Source: an uncultured Paracoccaceae bacterium (lineage in GTDB: Bacteria; Pseudomonadota; Alphaproteobacteria; Rhodobacterales; Rhodobacteraceae). Taken from it: a stretch of DNA of 64,000 nt. Positions 3,462 through 33,808 of this stretch are shown here, one piece after another. Numbering within the stretch: position 1 is the first letter of the stretch; each line of letters starts with the position of its first letter. The position numbers and the translations under genes are program-made. Under the pieces are notes generated by a model. The model did not search any database. It was not told where the DNA came from and saw nothing but the letters and a program-made list of their open reading frames with translations. The stretch covers positions 372,001 to 436,000 of the forward strand of contig CANNFE010000002.1 in NCBI GenBank assembly GCA_947503775.1. Reading direction: 5' to 3'.

Positions 3462-3782
3462 TTAGATCGATTCTTCGATCCAGCTTTGCAGCTGCGCCTT
3501 GGGCTTGGCGCCGGTCATGTTCGAGACGACATCGCCGCCCTTGAACATGAAGAGCGCGGGAATGCCGCGCACGCCAAGCTGGGCGGGAGAATTCGGGTTC
3601 TCGTCGACATTGACCTTCACGATCTTCACCTTGCCGTCCATCTCGGCGGACAGCTCTTCCAGAGCGGGGCCGATCTGTTTGCAGGGGCCGCACCATTCGG
3701 CCCAGAAATCGACGACGACGGGAACGTCGGACTGGCGCACTTCGGCGTCGAAGGTTGCATCGGTGACGGCGTGGGTGGCCAT
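3462..3782 (-). CDS. trxA: Thioredoxin
   Basis: 106-residue thioredoxin fold with the classic active site WCGPCK at about residues 31-36, preceded by VVVDFWAEW, and the conserved cis-proline loop RGIPALFMF. It is a cytoplasmic disulfide reductant that uses thioredoxin reductase. The ATG at 3782 is preceded by AGGAGAG at good spacing, so I prefer it to a start five codons upstream. It lies 60 bases downstream of addA in the same orientation and is followed by a hairpin terminator, so it may be the last gene of the addBA run or have its own promoter. Confidence 0.95.
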
Positions 3783-3842
3783 ATCGGCTCTCCTCAAAGG
3801 ACTGGGTTCGGATGCGGAAGGTAGGAACGCGGCCGGGTGGGG

Positions 3843-6800
3843 TCAAGCAGGTGTGGCGGTTCTGAGCGCTTCGGACACAAGATCGTGCGCAAGAGGCATC
3901 AATGCGCCCGTCGCGGTCCAGAGGATTGCGGTCTCGATCCGCCTCTCGGGAAAGATCAGGGACAGCGCGGCGGCATAGGCGCCCATCTGGCGCAGCAGAC
4001 CGTCCGGAACCGCCTCGGGCCGGTCCGGAACGGTGCGGTTCGTCTTGAAATCCACGGCGAGGATCCGGGTCTCCTCAAGGATCAGCCGGTCGATGGCGCC
4101 GTGGATCCGCCGCCCGCCAAGCGCCGCCAGAGGAGCCGTGACGGGCACCTCGGCCAGCGTGCTGGGCGCAAAGAGGGGGACCAGCGCGGGATCCTCGAGG
4201 ACGGCCGCCGCCTCGGCCAGCGCCCGATCGATCTGAGGCTGGGTGCTTTTGCCCGCCAGATAGGCCCGGCTCGCGTCCGGCCAGCGCTCCGGATCGAGCC
4301 CCGGCAAGACCTCGAGCAGGCTATGGACCCGCGTGCCGTGGGCCAGCGCCTCGGCCTCGGTCTCTCCCAACGCGCCGGGCAGGGCCTTGGCGCCGCCAAG
4401 ATCGGACGGGGAGAGCGTCGGATCCCGCCCGGACGCTGGCAGCGCGGGGCGCATCGCGAAATCCGGCAGGCTCGCCTCGGGCATCCGGGCGGGCGGTTCG
4501 GCAACCACGTCCCCCGCCGCCCAGTCGGCATGGGTCAGGCGCAGGCCGGCGCCCGTCGGCATCGCAGCCTCGACCGCCCCGACGGCGGGCATCGCATCGG
4601 CGACACGGGCGTACCAGCTGGGATCCTTCGCCTCGACCTCGCCGGCCGCGCAGCAGATCAGCCAGCTTTCGGCACGGGTCATCGCGACATAAAGCAGCCG
4701 GTTGCGCTCTTCCTCCTGTCTGTCCTTCGCCGCCTCGGCCAGAGTTGCCATCGCGGCGGGGCGGTCCTTCTTGAGCACCGACCACAAGGCCACGCCAGAG
4801 GCACCCAAAAGCTCCGGATCGCTTGGCGGTTTGCGTACTGCCATATCCGGCAGGATCACGATCGGCGCCTCGAGCCCCTTTGCCCCATGCACCGTCATCA
4901 CCCTGAGCTTGCCGCCCTGCGCGCCCATCTCGCGCTTGATTTCGATCTCGTCGCCTTCGAGCCAGCCCAGAAAGCCGGTCAGGCTGGGCACATCCATCGC
5001 CTCGTAGGTCAGCGCGAGCGACAGCAGCGCGTCGATGGCATCCTCCGCTTCGCGCCCGAGCCGCGAGAGAAGCCGCGTCCGCCCGCCATGGCGCGTCAGA
5101 AGCCGGTCGATCAGATCATAGGGGCGGCGAAAGTCGGCCTCGTTCCGCAGATCGTCCAGGATGGCCATCGTCCGGGGATGGTCGGCCCGCGCGCCCCGAA
5201 GCGCGGCCCAAAGCGGCGCGCCTGCCGGGCGGGGATGCGCCAGATCGTAAAGCTGCCCCTCGCTCCACCCGAAGAGCGGCGATTTCAGCGCGCAGGCCAG
5301 GGCATAGTCATCCTCGGGCAGGGCCAGAAACGCCAGCACCGCAAGGATATCCTTGACCGCCAGATCCTCGATCACCCGAAGCCGGTCCGCGCCCGCAACA
5401 TCGATGCCGCGCGCCTTGCAGCTTTGGATCAGCTCGGAGAACAGCGCGCCGGTCCGCCCGCGCACGAGGATCAGGATATCGCCTGCCGTCACAGGGCGGC
5501 GCACGACCTCGCCGTTCCGCATCTCGGGCAGCGTCTCTTCCTCGATCATCCGCTCGATCTCAGCGGCAATCGTGCGCGCCAACTGCACCTTGGGATCGCC
5601 AGGCGGGATGTAGTCGATGGGATCGGTCCAGTCGGGCTTGTCGTCCTTCTCGGAGACAGGCACCGGCGGCCACAAATCGACGCGGCCCGGCAGATCGGCC
5701 TTGAACGCCCTGTGCAGAACGTCCGTGCCTAGCCCGGGCGTACCGCGAAAGACCTCATCGACCAGCCGCAGGGTCGGCACCGCAGAGCGGAAGGAATGAT
5801 CGAGCGAGCTGATCTCGAGCCGCCTTCCCGCATCGTTCAGACCGCCTTCGAAATGGGCACGCATCCGGTCGAAAGCCCCCGGATCGGCCCCCTGAAACGA
5901 GTAGATCGATTGCTTCAGATCGCCGACCACGAAGATCGTCCGCTCCGCATCGACCCGCGCGCCTTCGCCTGCTGTGAATTCCTGCGCGAGGCTGCGGATT
6001 ACGTCCCATTGCGCGGGACTGGTATCCTGCGCTTCGTCGACAAGGATGTGATCGATCCCGCCATCAAGCCGGAAGAGCACCCATTGCGCGACATCCCGGG
6101 CCGTCAGAAGCTGGCGTGCCTTTCGGATCAGATCATCGAAATCGAGCCATCCGCGCCGCTCCTTGGCGGCGGCGAAGGCCCGCAGGAAATCCCGCGCAAA
6201 CCGGTGAAGCGCCCGGCTGCGGTCAAAGGCCATCAACGCCAGACGCGCCTCGCGCCCCGCCTCGACCCGCTCCATCAGCGGATTGAGCCAGTCCATCAGA
6301 TCGGGAGCGCCCTCGCGCAGATCCTTTGTCGGGAATGTATTGATCTTGGCCGAGAAGGGGGCCTTGGCGCCCTCTCCAGTCAAAAAGACGCCCTCAAGCA
6401 CCGCCATATCCGACGCCTCAAGGCGCGGCTTACGGGCAACCGCCTCCAGCTTCGCCGCCGCCTTCTGATCGGTCGATTTCCCCCTCCGGCAGAGATCGCG
6501 CAGCGCTCTGAGCTGCCCCGGATCGTCCGCGCCGACCGTCTCCTCGACCAGCCCCTCCGGCGTCGCGACCTCATCGAGACCCAAAGCGCCCCTCAAAGCG
6601 GTCTCGATCTCGCCTGCCGGAAAGAGCTCGGCCTTCGACACGATCTGCTGCATCAGGGCGTCGATATCCGCGCCTGTGACCTGCATCATCAGCGCCTCGA
6701 CGACCTCGGGCGCCTCGACGGCGAGCCGCTCGAGGACGGTCAGCCGCAATTGCCGGGCGCTCCGCTCGTCCATCTCGACAAAGCCCGGGCTTACCCCCGC

Positions 6801-28893: not shown

Positions 28894-29661
28894 ATGGTGG
28901 AAAACCATAATGCGGCTTTAAGCGGCAAGGCGGTCCTGATCACCGGGGCAAGCCGCGGGATCGGTGCGGAGGCGGCGCGGGCCTTTGCGGGGGCAGGGGC
29001 GCGGGTGGCTTTGCTGGCGCGCAGCCGGGCTGAGATCGCCGAGATCGCGGGCGAAATCGGAGAGGCGGCCATCGCCATCCCCTGCGACGTGAGCCGCTAT
29101 TGGGAGGTCGAAGCAGCGGTCGCCAAGACCGTCGAGACCTTTGGATCGCTCGACGTTCTGGTCGGCAATGCGGGCGTGATCGAGCCGATTGCCCATCTGG
29201 CCAAGGCCGATTCGGAGGACTGGGGGCGGGTCATCGACATCAATCTCAAAGGTGTGTTTCACGGGATGCGCGCGGCGATGCCGGTGATGCTGGATCAGGG
29301 CGGCGGGACGATCCTGACGGTGTCGTCCGGGGCGGCGCATGGGCCGGTGGAGGCGTGGTCGCATTATTGCGCGTCCAAGGCCGGGGCGGCGATGCTGACG
29401 CGCTGCGCCGACAAGGAGGGGCGCGCGGGCGGGATCCGGGCGATGGGCCTCTCGCCGGGTACGGTCGCGACCGAGATGCAGCGCGAGATCAAGGCGAGCG
29501 GCATCAACCCGGTGAGCCAGCTGGACTGGTCCGATCATATCCCGGCGGAGTGGCCCGCGCAGGCCCTGGTCTGGATGTGCTCGCCGGAGGCGGATGCGTT
29601 CGTCGGAGAAGAGATCTCGCTCCGGGATGAGGGGATCCGGGCGCGGGTCGGTCTGGTGTGA
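28894..29661 (+). CDS. Short-chain dehydrogenase/reductase
   Basis: 255-residue classical SDR: cofactor motif TGASRGIG near residue 17, NAG in VLVGNAGVIE, catalytic serine in LTVSSGAAHG, and the YxxxK pair in SHYCASKAG. The ATG at 28894 follows GGGGAGA. It is divergent from the DUF2125 gene. The final part (SPEADAFVGEEISL) is the common SDR tail. Substrate not deducible; NAD(P)-dependent oxidation of a hydroxy compound is the general reaction. Confidence 0.9.
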   Translation: MVENHNAALSGKAVLITGASRGIGAEAARAFAGAGARVALLARSRAEIAEIAGEIGEAAIAIPCDVSRYWEVEAAVAKTVETFGSLDVLVGNAGVIEPIAHLAKADSEDWGRVIDINLKGVFHGMRAAMPVMLDQGGGTILTVSSGAAHGPVEAWSHYCASKAGAAMLTRCADKEGRAGGIRAMGLSPGTVATEMQREIKASGINPVSQLDWSDHIPAEWPAQALVWMCSPEADAFVGEEISLRDEGIRARVGLV

Positions 29662-29814
29662 TCCGGACCCGGCGCGAGGGCGCGCTGGCCTGAAAGGGCC
29701 TTGAATGTCTGCAAGGAGCCATCAGCAACAGATGCTGTACTTGGCACAAATGTCCGATATTGGCGAAGCGATCAGAATAATAAAACGCCTGTCTGTAAAG
29801 ACCGCGCGTTCACG

Positions 29815-30456
29815 TCAACTTGGCGGACCAATTATCCTTTTCTTCACACACGCATAAGCCGCATATGAACGCATCAGTGGCACATGCGAGATATGATGCC
29901 CCTCGATCCCTGCCAAAATCATCTTGAGATCGTCGCGGGGTGTAACGTGAAACCGGGCAAGCCAATTGCGCAATCCGCGTTCAAACCACGGGGGCATGCG
30001 TGACTGGTCTCCGAAATCTACGATGTGCAGCGCGCCACCCGGTGCCAGATGCGACACCGCTTCTTTGAGTGCAGACTGCCATTGAGGGATCATCGATATG
30101 CAATACGACATGACGATGTGGTCAAATTTGGCTTGGCCAAAAAGACTTGCGGGGTCAAAATTGCATGCATCTGCTTGAGCGAGTTTTGCCCGATCCCCCA
30201 GCTTTCTGCGCGCAGAAAGCAACATTTCTGACGAAATATCGAGGCCGTAGAGATGCCTGTCGGGATAGCGCATGTCGATCTGATCGAGATTGCGCCCGGT
30301 CCCGCAGGCGATCTCCAAAATATGTGCACCTGCTTTGGCCTGTATTTGTCGCAAGGCATAGTCGCGCCCAAATAGATAATATTTCCGGGTTGCATCATAG
30401 AAAAAGCGCTGTCGGCGATAGATCTGGTCCATCAGCGCGCTGTGCGTTTCGACCAT
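29815..30456 (-). CDS. btaB: SAM-dependent methyltransferase BtaB (betaine lipid synthesis)
   Basis: 213-residue class I methyltransferase with motif I ILEIACGTGRNL and the acidic motif LYGLDISSEML. It lies five bases downstream of btaA, the arrangement known from Rhodobacter sphaeroides, where BtaB trimethylates diacylglycerylhomoserine to the betaine lipid DGTS at the membrane. The methyltransferase fold is seen directly; the substrate is inferred from linkage to btaA and matching length. The three-gene block (29.8-32.5 kb) is AT-richer than the flanks. It probably belongs to the phosphate-controlled operon beginning with plcP. Confidence 0.9.
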   Translation of the reverse strand: MVETHSALMDQIYRRQRFFYDATRKYYLFGRDYALRQIQAKAGAHILEIACGTGRNLDQIDMRYPDRHLYGLDISSEMLLSARRKLGDRAKLAQADACNFDPASLFGQAKFDHIVMSYCISMIPQWQSALKEAVSHLAPGGALHIVDFGDQSRMPPWFERGLRNWLARFHVTPRDDLKMILAGIEGHHISHVPLMRSYAAYACVKKRIIGPPS

Positions 30457-30461
30457 TTGGC

Positions 30462-31679
30462 TTATCTTTTCAAACGATAGAGATGGAACCCGCCATAGAT
30501 GGCCGATCTGTCATTTTGAAAGCCCTTGGCCGAGGCCTCAGCTTGATAGGCCCAGCGGGACAGGATCTGCGGATCCACACGGCCGGGCAGGATGTCATCC
30601 TTACCACCGGTGCGAAAGATCACTCGTGCGCCAGGGGCCGCAGTTCGGGTGATTTCGGACCAGAGTGCGTTTAATTGATCATCGCTCATCCAGTCCTGTG
30701 CATCCAACAAAACAAAGCAGTGCTTGGAGGCCGTTGGTTGGGTGGCGAGCACGTCGGTGAGCGACTTGTTCAACACCTTCACCCGTTCCGCGTTGGTGCG
30801 AACGGTCGCAAAGTTGTCAGCGTCCAGATACGGCGGGACCGCTGGTGTCGATACGGGTTCGTAGCCGCGGTAGGCCGCCTGCCACGCGAAATAGTTTTCC
30901 CTGATTGGAAAGTCGCAAAATAGCTTGCGTGTTCTTTCCTTCAGGACAGCGATGATGTCACCATCTGCATCAGCGGCGAGTTTGTCATACTGAGCAGGCG
31001 GGATGCCAAGACCAAAGAGCGAGGCGCGCCGCTTCGCCAGGAACCTCACAAAACGACTGTGATAAAGCGGAACGATCTGTTGATCATAAAAGGCCCGCTG
31101 GTCTTCCAGCGATTGGGCCGCCAGAAGCGGCGCAAAATCCACACGGGCCAGTCTTGCGACAAGGTGAACCACACCAATAAAGCGACCAAGCACCCCGTGA
31201 CGGTAAAGACCGCGCGCCAGAATAGCCTTACGCCGACCCGTCAATGTGCGGGCATTCCAATACTCACGCGTCTGGTCATCCAGAAACGGCGCGATATGCG
31301 TATCGAAGGCATCTACGTTGCTCTGCTGATCCCCACGGGCCAGCAACGCAAAAAGCGTCGCATGATCAGGCGCATGCTGCACGACCGCGAGCTTAAGCTT
31401 ATTGAGCATGACATGCGCTGGGGACAGGTCTACGGCGGTGATGGATGCCGGGTTCGCCGTCAAATATGACAGCATGTTACACCCACCCGACGCGATACCG
31501 ATGATGTTGTCCTCGGGCTGGATGTCCAGTGCCTGCATATCAACGACGGGATCCTCCCAGATCTGGGCATAGACCAACCCGTGAAACAGGCGTGCAAAGG
31601 CGCGCTCCAAAAGTCCTTCGCGGGTCATCGTTGCATTCTGGTTTACGGCGTCGTGAAGTTGCTGGGATATTGAACTCAT
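30462..31679 (-). CDS. btaA: S-adenosylmethionine:diacylglycerol 3-amino-3-carboxypropyl transferase BtaA (DUF3419)
   Basis: 405 residues, matching BtaA length. The N-terminal half carries the family pattern LVYAQIWEDPVVDMQAL and the nucleotide-binding IIGIASGGCNMLSYLT, then ITAVDLSPAHVMLNKLKL; the C-terminal half has the second Rossmann-like motif CFVLLDAQDWMSDDQLNALW. BtaA transfers the aminocarboxypropyl group of SAM to diacylglycerol, the first committed step to DGTS. AGAGG precedes the ATG. It stands between plcP (14 bases upstream) and btaB, so the three genes provide lipid breakdown and phosphorus-free replacement together. Confidence 0.94.
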   Translation of the reverse strand: MSSISQQLHDAVNQNATMTREGLLERAFARLFHGLVYAQIWEDPVVDMQALDIQPEDNIIGIASGGCNMLSYLTANPASITAVDLSPAHVMLNKLKLAVVQHAPDHATLFALLARGDQQSNVDAFDTHIAPFLDDQTREYWNARTLTGRRKAILARGLYRHGVLGRFIGVVHLVARLARVDFAPLLAAQSLEDQRAFYDQQIVPLYHSRFVRFLAKRRASLFGLGIPPAQYDKLAADADGDIIAVLKERTRKLFCDFPIRENYFAWQAAYRGYEPVSTPAVPPYLDADNFATVRTNAERVKVLNKSLTDVLATQPTASKHCFVLLDAQDWMSDDQLNALWSEITRTAAPGARVIFRTGGKDDILPGRVDPQILSRWAYQAEASAKGFQNDRSAIYGGFHLYRLKR

Positions 31680-31693
31680 GGACCTCTCCCGTT

Positions 31694-32488
31694 TCAGGTG
31701 TCTTCTTTGACAAGGTATTTGACAGACTTGCGGGTTTGCCGGCGCTCAGCGTTGGCTTTTTCTTCCCAATCAATGAGTTCGATTTCGCCAGTTGGGTGCT
31801 CTGCGATCGCGGTACAGCTTTCCACCCAATCACCGGTGTTGATGTAAGCGATATCTTTGATACAGCGGATATTGGCATAGTGAATGTGGCCGCATATGAC
31901 GCCATCATAGCCACCGCGCCGCGCCTCTTCCGCCAGTACATCTTCGTATTGACCGATAAAGTTGACGGCCGTTTTCACCTGCCGCTTGGCCCATTTTGAC
32001 AATGACCAGTATTGCCCACCCCACATTGATCGCATGCGGTTGATCTTGGGGTTCAGCCAAATCAGAAAATCATAGGCCGCATCACCGAAATGCGCGAGCC
32101 ATTTGGCATTCACAACCACCGTGTCGAATTGGTCGCCGTGTGTGACAAGATACCGTTTCCCATCAAGTCCCGTGAAATCGGCGGTTCGCTTCACTTCAAT
32201 GCCGCCAAAATGGGTGCCAAGGTAGTTCCGCATCACCTCATCATGATTGCCAGGGACAAAGATGATCCGGGTGCCACGTCTCGCCTTGTCCAGCAATGTT
32301 TGCACAACGTTGTTATGGGCCTGCGGCCAGTGCCAACCGCGCCGCGCAAGGGCCCACCCGTCAAAGATGTCGCCGACGAGATAGATCGTACTGGCGTCAT
32401 ATTTTCGAAGGAACGCAACCAGCAGATCTGCGCGGCAACCGCGCGTGCCAAGGTGAACGTCTGATAGGAACAGCGTTCTGAACAACAT
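31694..32488 (-). CDS. plcP: Metallophosphoesterase, PlcP-type phospholipase C
   Basis: 264-residue calcineurin-like phosphoesterase with all metal-binding blocks: FLSDVHLG, GDIFDGW, GNHDE, THGDQFD and CGHIHYA. It resembles UDP-2,3-diacylglucosamine hydrolase (LpxH-like) annotations, but its place directly before btaA-btaB is that of PlcP, which releases diacylglycerol from phospholipids during phosphorus starvation in marine bacteria and rhizobia; that diacylglycerol is the substrate of BtaA. The start at 32488 fits the fold; a start at 32629 is rejected because it would run through the Pho box. The lipase role is inferred from family and context. Confidence 0.85.
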   Translation of the reverse strand: MLFRTLFLSDVHLGTRGCRADLLVAFLRKYDASTIYLVGDIFDGWALARRGWHWPQAHNNVVQTLLDKARRGTRIIFVPGNHDEVMRNYLGTHFGGIEVKRTADFTGLDGKRYLVTHGDQFDTVVVNAKWLAHFGDAAYDFLIWLNPKINRMRSMWGGQYWSLSKWAKRQVKTAVNFIGQYEDVLAEEARRGGYDGVICGHIHYANIRCIKDIAYINTGDWVESCTAIAEHPTGEIELIDWEEKANAERRQTRKSVKYLVKEDT

Positions 32489-33034
32489 AGGCTGCCTCTT
32501 GCGATACTGATGTTCTCCGAGGTAGTTCGCTAGAATGACAGCAAGGTGACGCCCACAACATCTGGTCTCACAACAATTCGTCGATGAATGTGAGAGGCGG
32601 CCATTCAGTTGAGGCCAATGAATACCCACTTCGTCCGCATAGCCCGCCTCATCCTCCTAACCTGATCAGCCTCTCCCAGATCGAGAAGGTCCTTTTCAAG
32701 GCCCGAGCGCATCGCCTTTGATCCATAAGCGTCGGCTTATGGGACCGCGATGCGCCGATTTCCAAAAATATCGACAATCCTGCCGGCCAAGTGGGTACGA
32801 TCCACATCCACGACCGCACAGGCACCGTTCGCTTGGTTAACCATGGGATTGGTGCGATTTGCCTCCTCCCATATGCCGACCATTTGCCGACCGGATGCCG
32901 CAGGCCAGATTTGCGCAAAACGCGGTCGTTAACCGTCGGATCGCAGGCAGTCTGGCCCATGCTGCGGCGACGCTTCGCTTGCAGCGGCCCGCATCGCGTT
33001 CTACCTCCGTCAAGACCAAGGAAAAGGGCCGCAC
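32489..33034. other. Gene-free stretch between plcP and yaaA
   Basis: 545 bases with no convincing gene on either strand. It holds the plcP promoter region with a Pho-box-like site (32536-32553). A short hairpin, ATAAGC/GCTTAT arms around GTCG, lies near 32726. Open frames of 60-144 codons here lack ribosome-binding sites and look like chance frames. Confidence 0.6.
32536..32553 (-). promoter_or_regulatory. Probable Pho box upstream of plcP-btaA-btaB
   Basis: On the minus strand the site reads GCGTCAC-CTTG-CTGTCAT: two 7-base half-sites separated by four bases, the layout of the PhoB-binding direct repeat (CTGTCAT, 4 bases, CTGTCAT). The downstream half-site is perfect and the upstream one matches at GTCA. 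It lies about 48 bases before the plcP ATG. This would place the lipid operon under phosphate-starvation control. Confidence 0.7.
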
Positions 33035-33808
33035 ATGCTGATCGTTCTCTCACCCGCAAAGTCGCTCGACTGGGAAACGTCACATGGCCCAGTCACCACT
33101 CCGGACTTTGCCGAAGATGCCTTGCGCCTTGCCAAGACGGCCCGGCAGCTGACGCTCAAGGATCTGAAATCACTCATGAAAATCAGTGATGATCTGGCGC
33201 GTCTGAACCGCGACCGCTTTCGCGCCTTCGCGGCCGAGCCGGATCCAAAGGACCTGCGCCCCGCCGCTTTGGCCTTCAACGGCGACACCTATCAGGGCCT
33301 TTGGGCAAAGGATTTCTCCGAGGCCGACTGGGCCGAAGCGGACCGACGCCTGCGCATTCTCTCGGGCCTTTACGGGCTGCTGAAACCCCGCGACGGTATC
33401 CAACCCTACCGCCTCGAGATGGGCTCCCGACTCAAGACCCGCCGCGGAAGCTCCCTCTATGACTATTGGGGGGGCGGGATCTCCAAGGCTTTGAATTCGC
33501 AGGCAAAAGAGCAGGGGGCGGAGTATCTGCTGAACTGCGCCAGCCAGGAATATTTCGGTGCTGTCGCTCCGAAATCGCTCAAGCTAACCGTCATCACCCC
33601 GACCTTCCTCGAAGAGAAAGAGGGCAACTCAAAGACGGTCAGCTTCTTCGCCAAACGCGCCCGGGGCGCGCTGGCCCGACACGTGATCCAGAATCGCATA
33701 ACCCAGCCCGCCGATCTGGCGGGGTTCAACGCGATGGGCTACCGCTACGACCCGGCCTCTACGCCGGAAAAGCCCGTCTTCTCAAGGTCCTATCAGGCAG
33801 CCGCCTAG
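33035..33808 (+). CDS. yaaA: Peroxide stress protein YaaA (DUF328)
   Basis: 257 residues with the full family pattern: MLIVLSPAKSLDW at the N-terminus, PAALAFNGDTYQGL, LSGLYGLLKPRDGIQPYRLE, LLNCASQEYFGAV and FFAKRARGALARHVI. YaaA limits free iron and protects DNA from oxidative damage in E. coli. The ribosome-binding site AAGGAAAAGG precedes the ATG. Its stop overlaps the stop of the convergent thiolase by four bases. Biochemical role by family only. Confidence 0.95.
   Translation: MLIVLSPAKSLDWETSHGPVTTPDFAEDALRLAKTARQLTLKDLKSLMKISDDLARLNRDRFRAFAAEPDPKDLRPAALAFNGDTYQGLWAKDFSEADWAEADRRLRILSGLYGLLKPRDGIQPYRLEMGSRLKTRRGSSLYDYWGGGISKALNSQAKEQGAEYLLNCASQEYFGAVAPKSLKLTVITPTFLEEKEGNSKTVSFFAKRARGALARHVIQNRITQPADLAGFNAMGYRYDPASTPEKPVFSRSYQAAA

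Follow-up and report, generated by a model that had tools for sequence, protein, structure and literature searches.

The window analyzed here, a 64,000-nt stretch from an uncultured Paracoccaceae bacterium (GCA_947503775.1, contig CANNFE010000002.1, positions 372,001–436,000), contains a run of minus-strand genes, plcP, btaA and btaB, separated by intergenic gaps of 14 nt (plcP-btaA) and 5 nt (btaA-btaB). Orthologues of plcP are present in Rhodobacteraceae, and the window PlcP shares 68–69% identity with the Phaeobacter homologues L043, L046 and L053; no NCBIfam model matched it above its cut-off. The DUF3419 domain (PF11899) of the btaA product represents what we take to be the BtaA family, the diacylglycerol homoserine transferase of DGTS synthesis. 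The gene order plcP-btaA-btaB given in the original prediction was borne out by ORF positions and domain matches. Because the next gene beyond btaB, encoding a short-chain dehydrogenase, lies on the opposite strand, the run consists of three genes. On the other side, the divergent plus-strand gene yaaA starts at 33035, leaving a 546-bp gap (32489–33034), and the predicted Pho box lies within the last 64 bp of this gap. An alternative plcP start proposed by the ORF caller, GTG at 32629, would place the box inside plcP; in the nearest relatives, L031–L035, a start codon is aligned with the window ATG at 32488. Positions of all features are collected in Table 1.

Table 1. Genes and predicted promoter features of the plcP-btaA-btaB locus, in window coordinates
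Feature	Position	Strand	Size	Basis
btaB, SAM-dependent methyltransferase	29815–30456	−	213 aa	PF08242, E 3.9e-18
btaA, DUF3419	30462–31679	−	405 aa	PF11899, E 1.7e-105
plcP, calcineurin-like phosphoesterase, phospholipase C by kinship	31694–32488	−	264 aa	PF00149, E 3.6e-14
Putative Shine-Dalgarno-like AAGAGG	32495–32500	−		Direct sequence reading
Predicted transcription start, about this A; leader ~23 nt	32511	−		A-rich columns
Predicted −10 element TACCTC	32519–32524	−		TA 28 bp from box start, 10 bp past box end
Predicted Pho box, half-sites GCGTCAC and CTGTCAT, spacer cttg	32535–32552	−		Pattern match and conserved place in relatives

Upstream of plcP, the minus strand reads GCGTCACcttgCTGTCAT at 32535–32552, with 46 nt between the end of the repeat and the plcP ATG. 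The original prediction had the sequence of the repeat right, GCGTCAC-CTTG-CTGTCAT, and its coordinates, 32536–32553, off by one base. Compared to CTGTCATnnnnCTGTCAT, a direct repeat of two 7-mers spaced by 4 nt, the window repeat has 3 mismatches in 14 positions under strict reading (11/14) and 2 in 14 (12/14) when C or T is permitted at the last base of each half. Both strands of the window contain 5 matches to this consensus at no more than 3 mismatches, with 3.14 expected and 18 of 100 shuffles reaching 5, and a lone 18-mer match in the window is not beyond chance. Across the whole genome, the pattern CTGTCAYnnnnCTGTCAY yielded 755 matches at the same tolerance versus 378 for the reversed control pattern, so many of the loose matches must be accidental; the stricter GTCAYnnnnnTGTCAY yielded 8 matches versus 1 for its control. 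What sets the plcP repeat beyond chance is its position and conservation, and not match quality alone.

To describe this conservation we used the best 80 of 301 relatives kept from a scan of the relatives' contigs. Fifty-five of the 80 constitute the bta-type set, comprising 54 loci with btaA directly 3′ of plcP and a single exception, L052. In 52 of the 54, btaB follows btaA, the contigs of L044 and L079 being too short to tell. The remaining 25 loci, many of them Hyphomicrobiales by title and some on short contigs, differ in having no btaA match after plcP. The window and the 55 bta-type relatives together gave 56 promoters, L052 being kept although it has neither btaA nor a clear box. A PhoB motif scan over relatives was the check put forward with the original prediction, and its outcome favors the prediction: 53 of the 56 promoters keep the repeat at a comparable distance from plcP, with a clear site 60–89 bp upstream of the plcP start. 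Between −85 and −50, the best site matched at least 9/14 positions in 56 promoters, at least 10/14 in 49, at least 11/14 in 37 and at least 12/14 in 20, while 200 dinucleotide shuffles gave means of 12.9, 2.9, 0.4 and 0.1 (maxima of 22 promoters at 9/14 or better and 2 at 11/14 or better); since the loci come from related species, these promoter counts are not independent events. At the same four thresholds the opposite strand of this region gave 27, 7, 0 and 0 promoters, and two regions further upstream gave 8 and 13, 3 and 3, 0 and 1, and 0 and 0.

De novo expectation maximization (EM) on 54 upstream regions, which excluded the window and its closest relative L031, returned TGTCACGGTTCTGTCACA, i.e., a Pho box, with a log-likelihood of 326 (60 restarts) compared to 73–83 for five shuffled sets (25 restarts each). 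Scored with this motif, the window has its best site, at 15.5 bits, where its nearest neighbors have theirs, and its next best position reaches 1.5 bits. The exceptions among the 56 are L052 (plcP located elsewhere) and L064 (degraded), in which EM found no site, and L066, which has a weak one (7.7 bits). All three score below the 9-bit threshold of the column analysis and were left out of it. In the 53 promoters anchored on the box, the 30 columns 5′ of the box look random (pairwise identity 0.24–0.29), whereas the half-site columns after the first range from 0.39 to 1.00, with 0.85–1.00 for the GTCA core of the first half. With the flanks diverged and the box kept, common ancestry does not easily account for the conservation of the box.

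The conserved place of the box extends to a second element. Counting from the start of the box, 43 of 54 anchored promoters, the window included, have a TA exactly at +28, and 49 have one within +28 to +30; no other offset exceeds 12. The count used a threshold of 8 bits, 17 of the model's 18 columns and 54 rows. In the 53 promoters of the column analysis, T has a frequency of 0.87 and A of 0.83 at +28 and +29. This TA likely marks the −10 element, which would put the box in the usual −35 place. In E. coli, PhoB stands in for the −35 element, and a box about 10 bp before the −10 is the expected spacing. Apart from the TA, the other four bases of TACCTC fit TATAAT poorly, and no sigma-70-like promoter was found in 32300–32900, a result that fits this reading but has low weight given that shuffles yield 0.2. 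The predicted transcription start coincides with columns +40, +41 and +42, counted from where the box begins, which are rich in A (0.55, 0.79 and 0.55 in 53 promoters). Of the 25 loci that do not belong to the bta-type set, 14 have a site above 8 bits somewhere between −160 and −40, with TA at +28 in 1 of the 14 and at +31 in 4; the spacing rule is thus not shown beyond the bta-type group. An accidental pair of TGTCA-like words 11 bp apart upstream of plcP would agree with the chance-level number of matches in the window and with a comparable, unconserved box that precedes a DUF6356 gene elsewhere in the genome. Nevertheless, we find such an accident barely credible, because motif and approximate position are kept in 53 of 56 promoters between random-looking upstream flanks and a conserved TA at a fixed distance; comparison of the sequences already contradicts it.

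The genome encodes a PhoB protein at G000:C1:47463–48131, which scored 345 bits against a cut-off of 296 and was the sole one of 26 matches to the PhoB model to exceed it; many of these matches are other OmpR-type regulators. Neighboring genes include a histidine kinase, PhoR by position, a PstS-like protein below the cut-off of that model, and ORFs that by eye resemble PhoU, PstB, PstA and PstC. The pstS gene is a core target of PhoB, and its promoter in the window genome is CTGTCATaaaaCTCTTACaattCTGTCAC. Of 61 genomes searched, 57 had a pstS match; in the 30 loci with the best matches, the motif trained on plcP promoters reached at least 12 bits 5′ of pstS in 29. The plain consensus reached 11/14 in 25 of the 30, compared to 1 of 30 further upstream. 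The same element therefore precedes a core Pho gene in the family.

Binding to direct repeats of about 10–11 bp is common among OmpR-type regulators, and most of the 26 matches to the PhoB model are regulators other than PhoB. The repeat might hence be read by another member of the OmpR/PhoB family that uses a similar 11-bp repeat and conveys a different or additional signal. We judge this very improbable, given that a motif built from plcP promoters alone finds the promoters of pstS and that plcP transcription is phosphate-controlled in Phaeobacter MED193 (PMC4796936). The predicted Pho box ahead of plcP-btaA-btaB is supported by its conservation in 53 of 56 promoters, by a genomic PhoB beside pst genes and by the motif shared with pstS. 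We consider it very probable that the repeat is a PhoB-binding Pho box in the promoter of a single transcription unit, plcP-btaA-btaB.

A survey of sampled family genomes addressed the linkage of these genes. A plcP gene of any kind was found in 30 of 198 genomes and its high-identity form (at least 63%) in 12, of which 11 have btaA adjoining plcP. In 10 of these 11 loci the highest-scoring consensus site within 200 bp is found between −61 and −78, and in L010 it is at −109; several of the genomes also belong to the larger bta-type set. A btaA-like match occurred in 28 of 197 genomes, with at least 49% identity in 15, and 4 of the 15 lack a close plcP directly ahead of btaA. Two of these separate btaA genes (L255 and L265) are preceded by a box of their own with TA at +28, and no box was found ahead of the other two (L266 and L267). 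This pattern suggests that, in some members of the family, Pho control goes along with the DGTS genes. The 18 loci of a low-identity plcP class (33–51%, L013–L030) have no btaA match within their 1.5-kb flanks and only scattered weak box sites.

These data also bear on whether the box could drive plcP alone, with btaA and btaB served by an internal promoter or largely cut off by termination. A scan of 29600–32600 revealed one weak sigma-70-like match inside btaA (31528–31501, minus strand), with shuffles yielding more (2.0), and btaA also contains three minus-strand terminator-like matches, the total on both strands being 5 compared to 2.7 (sd 1.5) in shuffles. However, the gaps of 14 and 5 nt are too small for a promoter between the genes, btaA directly follows plcP in 54 of 55 bta-type relatives, and box and TA precede btaA itself in two of the four loci where it does not directly follow plcP. 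Separate expression of plcP thus appears very unlikely.

In the mechanism that we propose for this promoter, phosphate shortage would cause PhoR to phosphorylate PhoB, and a PhoB dimer occupying both half-sites would substitute for the missing −35 element and set RNA polymerase on the weak −10 (TACCTC) 10 bp downstream. PlcP would convert phospholipids to diacylglycerol, from which BtaA and BtaB would form the phosphorus-free betaine lipid DGTS. With one Pho promoter for the three genes, lipid breakdown and lipid replacement would be switched together.

The gene arrangement itself is already known. Sebastian et al. (PMC4796936) describe type 1 plcP clusters, e.g., that of Phaeobacter sp. MED193, in which btaA and btaB lie downstream of plcP, a definition that applies to the window cluster as well. 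The same study reports putative Pho boxes in plcP gene clusters, transcription of MED193 plcP under P depletion with repression 2 h after re-feeding, and loss of DGTS upon plcP deletion (PMC4796936). MED193 shares the gene order but is a different organism. In Sinorhizobium meliloti, PhoB-controlled lipid remodeling involves plcP, btaA and btaB, and plcP and the DGTS genes are activated by PhoB, according to a review (PMC3972451). A Pho box has likewise been predicted in the promoter region of the plcP-agt1 operon of Pseudomonas aeruginosa (PMC8528852); the partner gene in this operon, however, encodes a glycosyltransferase for glycolipids instead of btaAB. The passage of PMC9457565 covered here contains no regulation data. 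The excerpts covered by our limited literature search made no mention of a fixed TA spacing or of the half-site contrast described below, which is weak evidence on what is in print. For one more Rhodobacteraceae genome, the present analysis links the breakdown of phospholipids and the synthesis of betaine lipids to a single probable phosphate switch, and the tested motif, with its TA at a fixed 28 bp from the start of the box, offers a means of predicting such promoters in carriers of plcP-btaAB.

The number of half-sites differs between promoters. At three 11-bp registers, recognizable half-sites occur in 28, 29 and 23 of 29 pstS promoters, compared to 50, 46 and 8 of 53 plcP-btaAB promoters; ppk (polyphosphate kinase) promoters have two half-sites (14/17 and 14/17). 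The score accepts TGTTA besides TGTCA and has a background of ~3%, and for plcP L052 was left out beforehand, and 53 of 55 promoters pass. As the first two registers are set by the anchoring, the third register is the only independent count. Counted from the first half-site, pstS promoters have a conserved TA at +50, which is 28 bp from their third half-site (T 0.90, A 0.86; n = 29). A half-site at register +33, which would complete the last pair, was recognizable in 0 of 29; the plcP spacing is therefore shared only in its 11-bp register and not as an intact proximal box. It is possible, though we offer it tentatively and with some doubt, that the Rhodobacteraceae Pho response is staged by half-site number, with three half-sites at pstS and one pair at plcP-btaAB. 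The single pair at plcP would perhaps give a later or weaker response than that of pstS, and what it might mean for affinity and timing is a guess. If true, lower PhoB affinity would let the cell scavenge phosphate first and dismantle its membrane phospholipids only when starvation is deeper or longer. The difference in half-sites between pstS and plcP offers a way to test in what order the starvation response unfolds.

Two plcP loci were observed to lie in other gene contexts. In L052, from a metagenome-assembled genome of an uncultured Rhodobacteraceae bacterium, plcP (3778–4530; 66–67% identity) has neither btaAB nor a clear Pho box and lies downstream of two ORFs resembling, by eye, RNase HII and a DNA methyltransferase. 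In L006 (G094), plcP starts at about 1494, has no btaA match and carries a strong predicted Pho box, GTGTCACagctCTGTCAC; the preceding ORF (191–1408) resembles a glycerophosphodiester phosphodiesterase by eye.

Among the 8 strict-pattern matches in the genome, one is the plcP site in the window, and of the other seven, those at ppk and at the DUF6356 gene alone seemed worth testing. The predicted Pho box of ppk, CTGTCACcaccTTGTCAC, is located at G000:C6:211135–211152 (L128), 22 bp before the start. A ppk match was present in 55 of 61 genomes, and the 30 loci with the best matches were scored: 17 reach 8 bits or more close to the gene start, and the other 13 fall short; the plain consensus reaches 11/14 in 8 of the 30, and in 1 further upstream. 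We note this putative Pho box without claiming it.

The DUF6356 gene (PF19883) was considered as a new Pho gene on account of a 12/14 box at G000:C5:61951–61968 (L127), and it was rejected. Across 27 DUF6356 loci from 120 genomes searched, with the gene start taken from the match in 10 of the 27, no other locus exceeded 10 bits, the nearest being L170 (9.2) and L180 (8.5), and the box is likely an accident. It provided the conservation test with a negative control: equal in quality yet unconserved, it indicates that even a good match may arise by accident. The DUF6356 loci (L166–L192) have a feature of their own, a palindrome of the form TTGGGATAATATCCCAA, ~90–140 bp upstream of the matched stretch. 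GGGA(3–9 nt)TCCC had no match at L166, the window genome's own DUF6356 locus, and was present upstream of the gene in 13 of the 27 loci, compared to 1 of 27 in a far control and 0.7 expected from mononucleotide shuffles.
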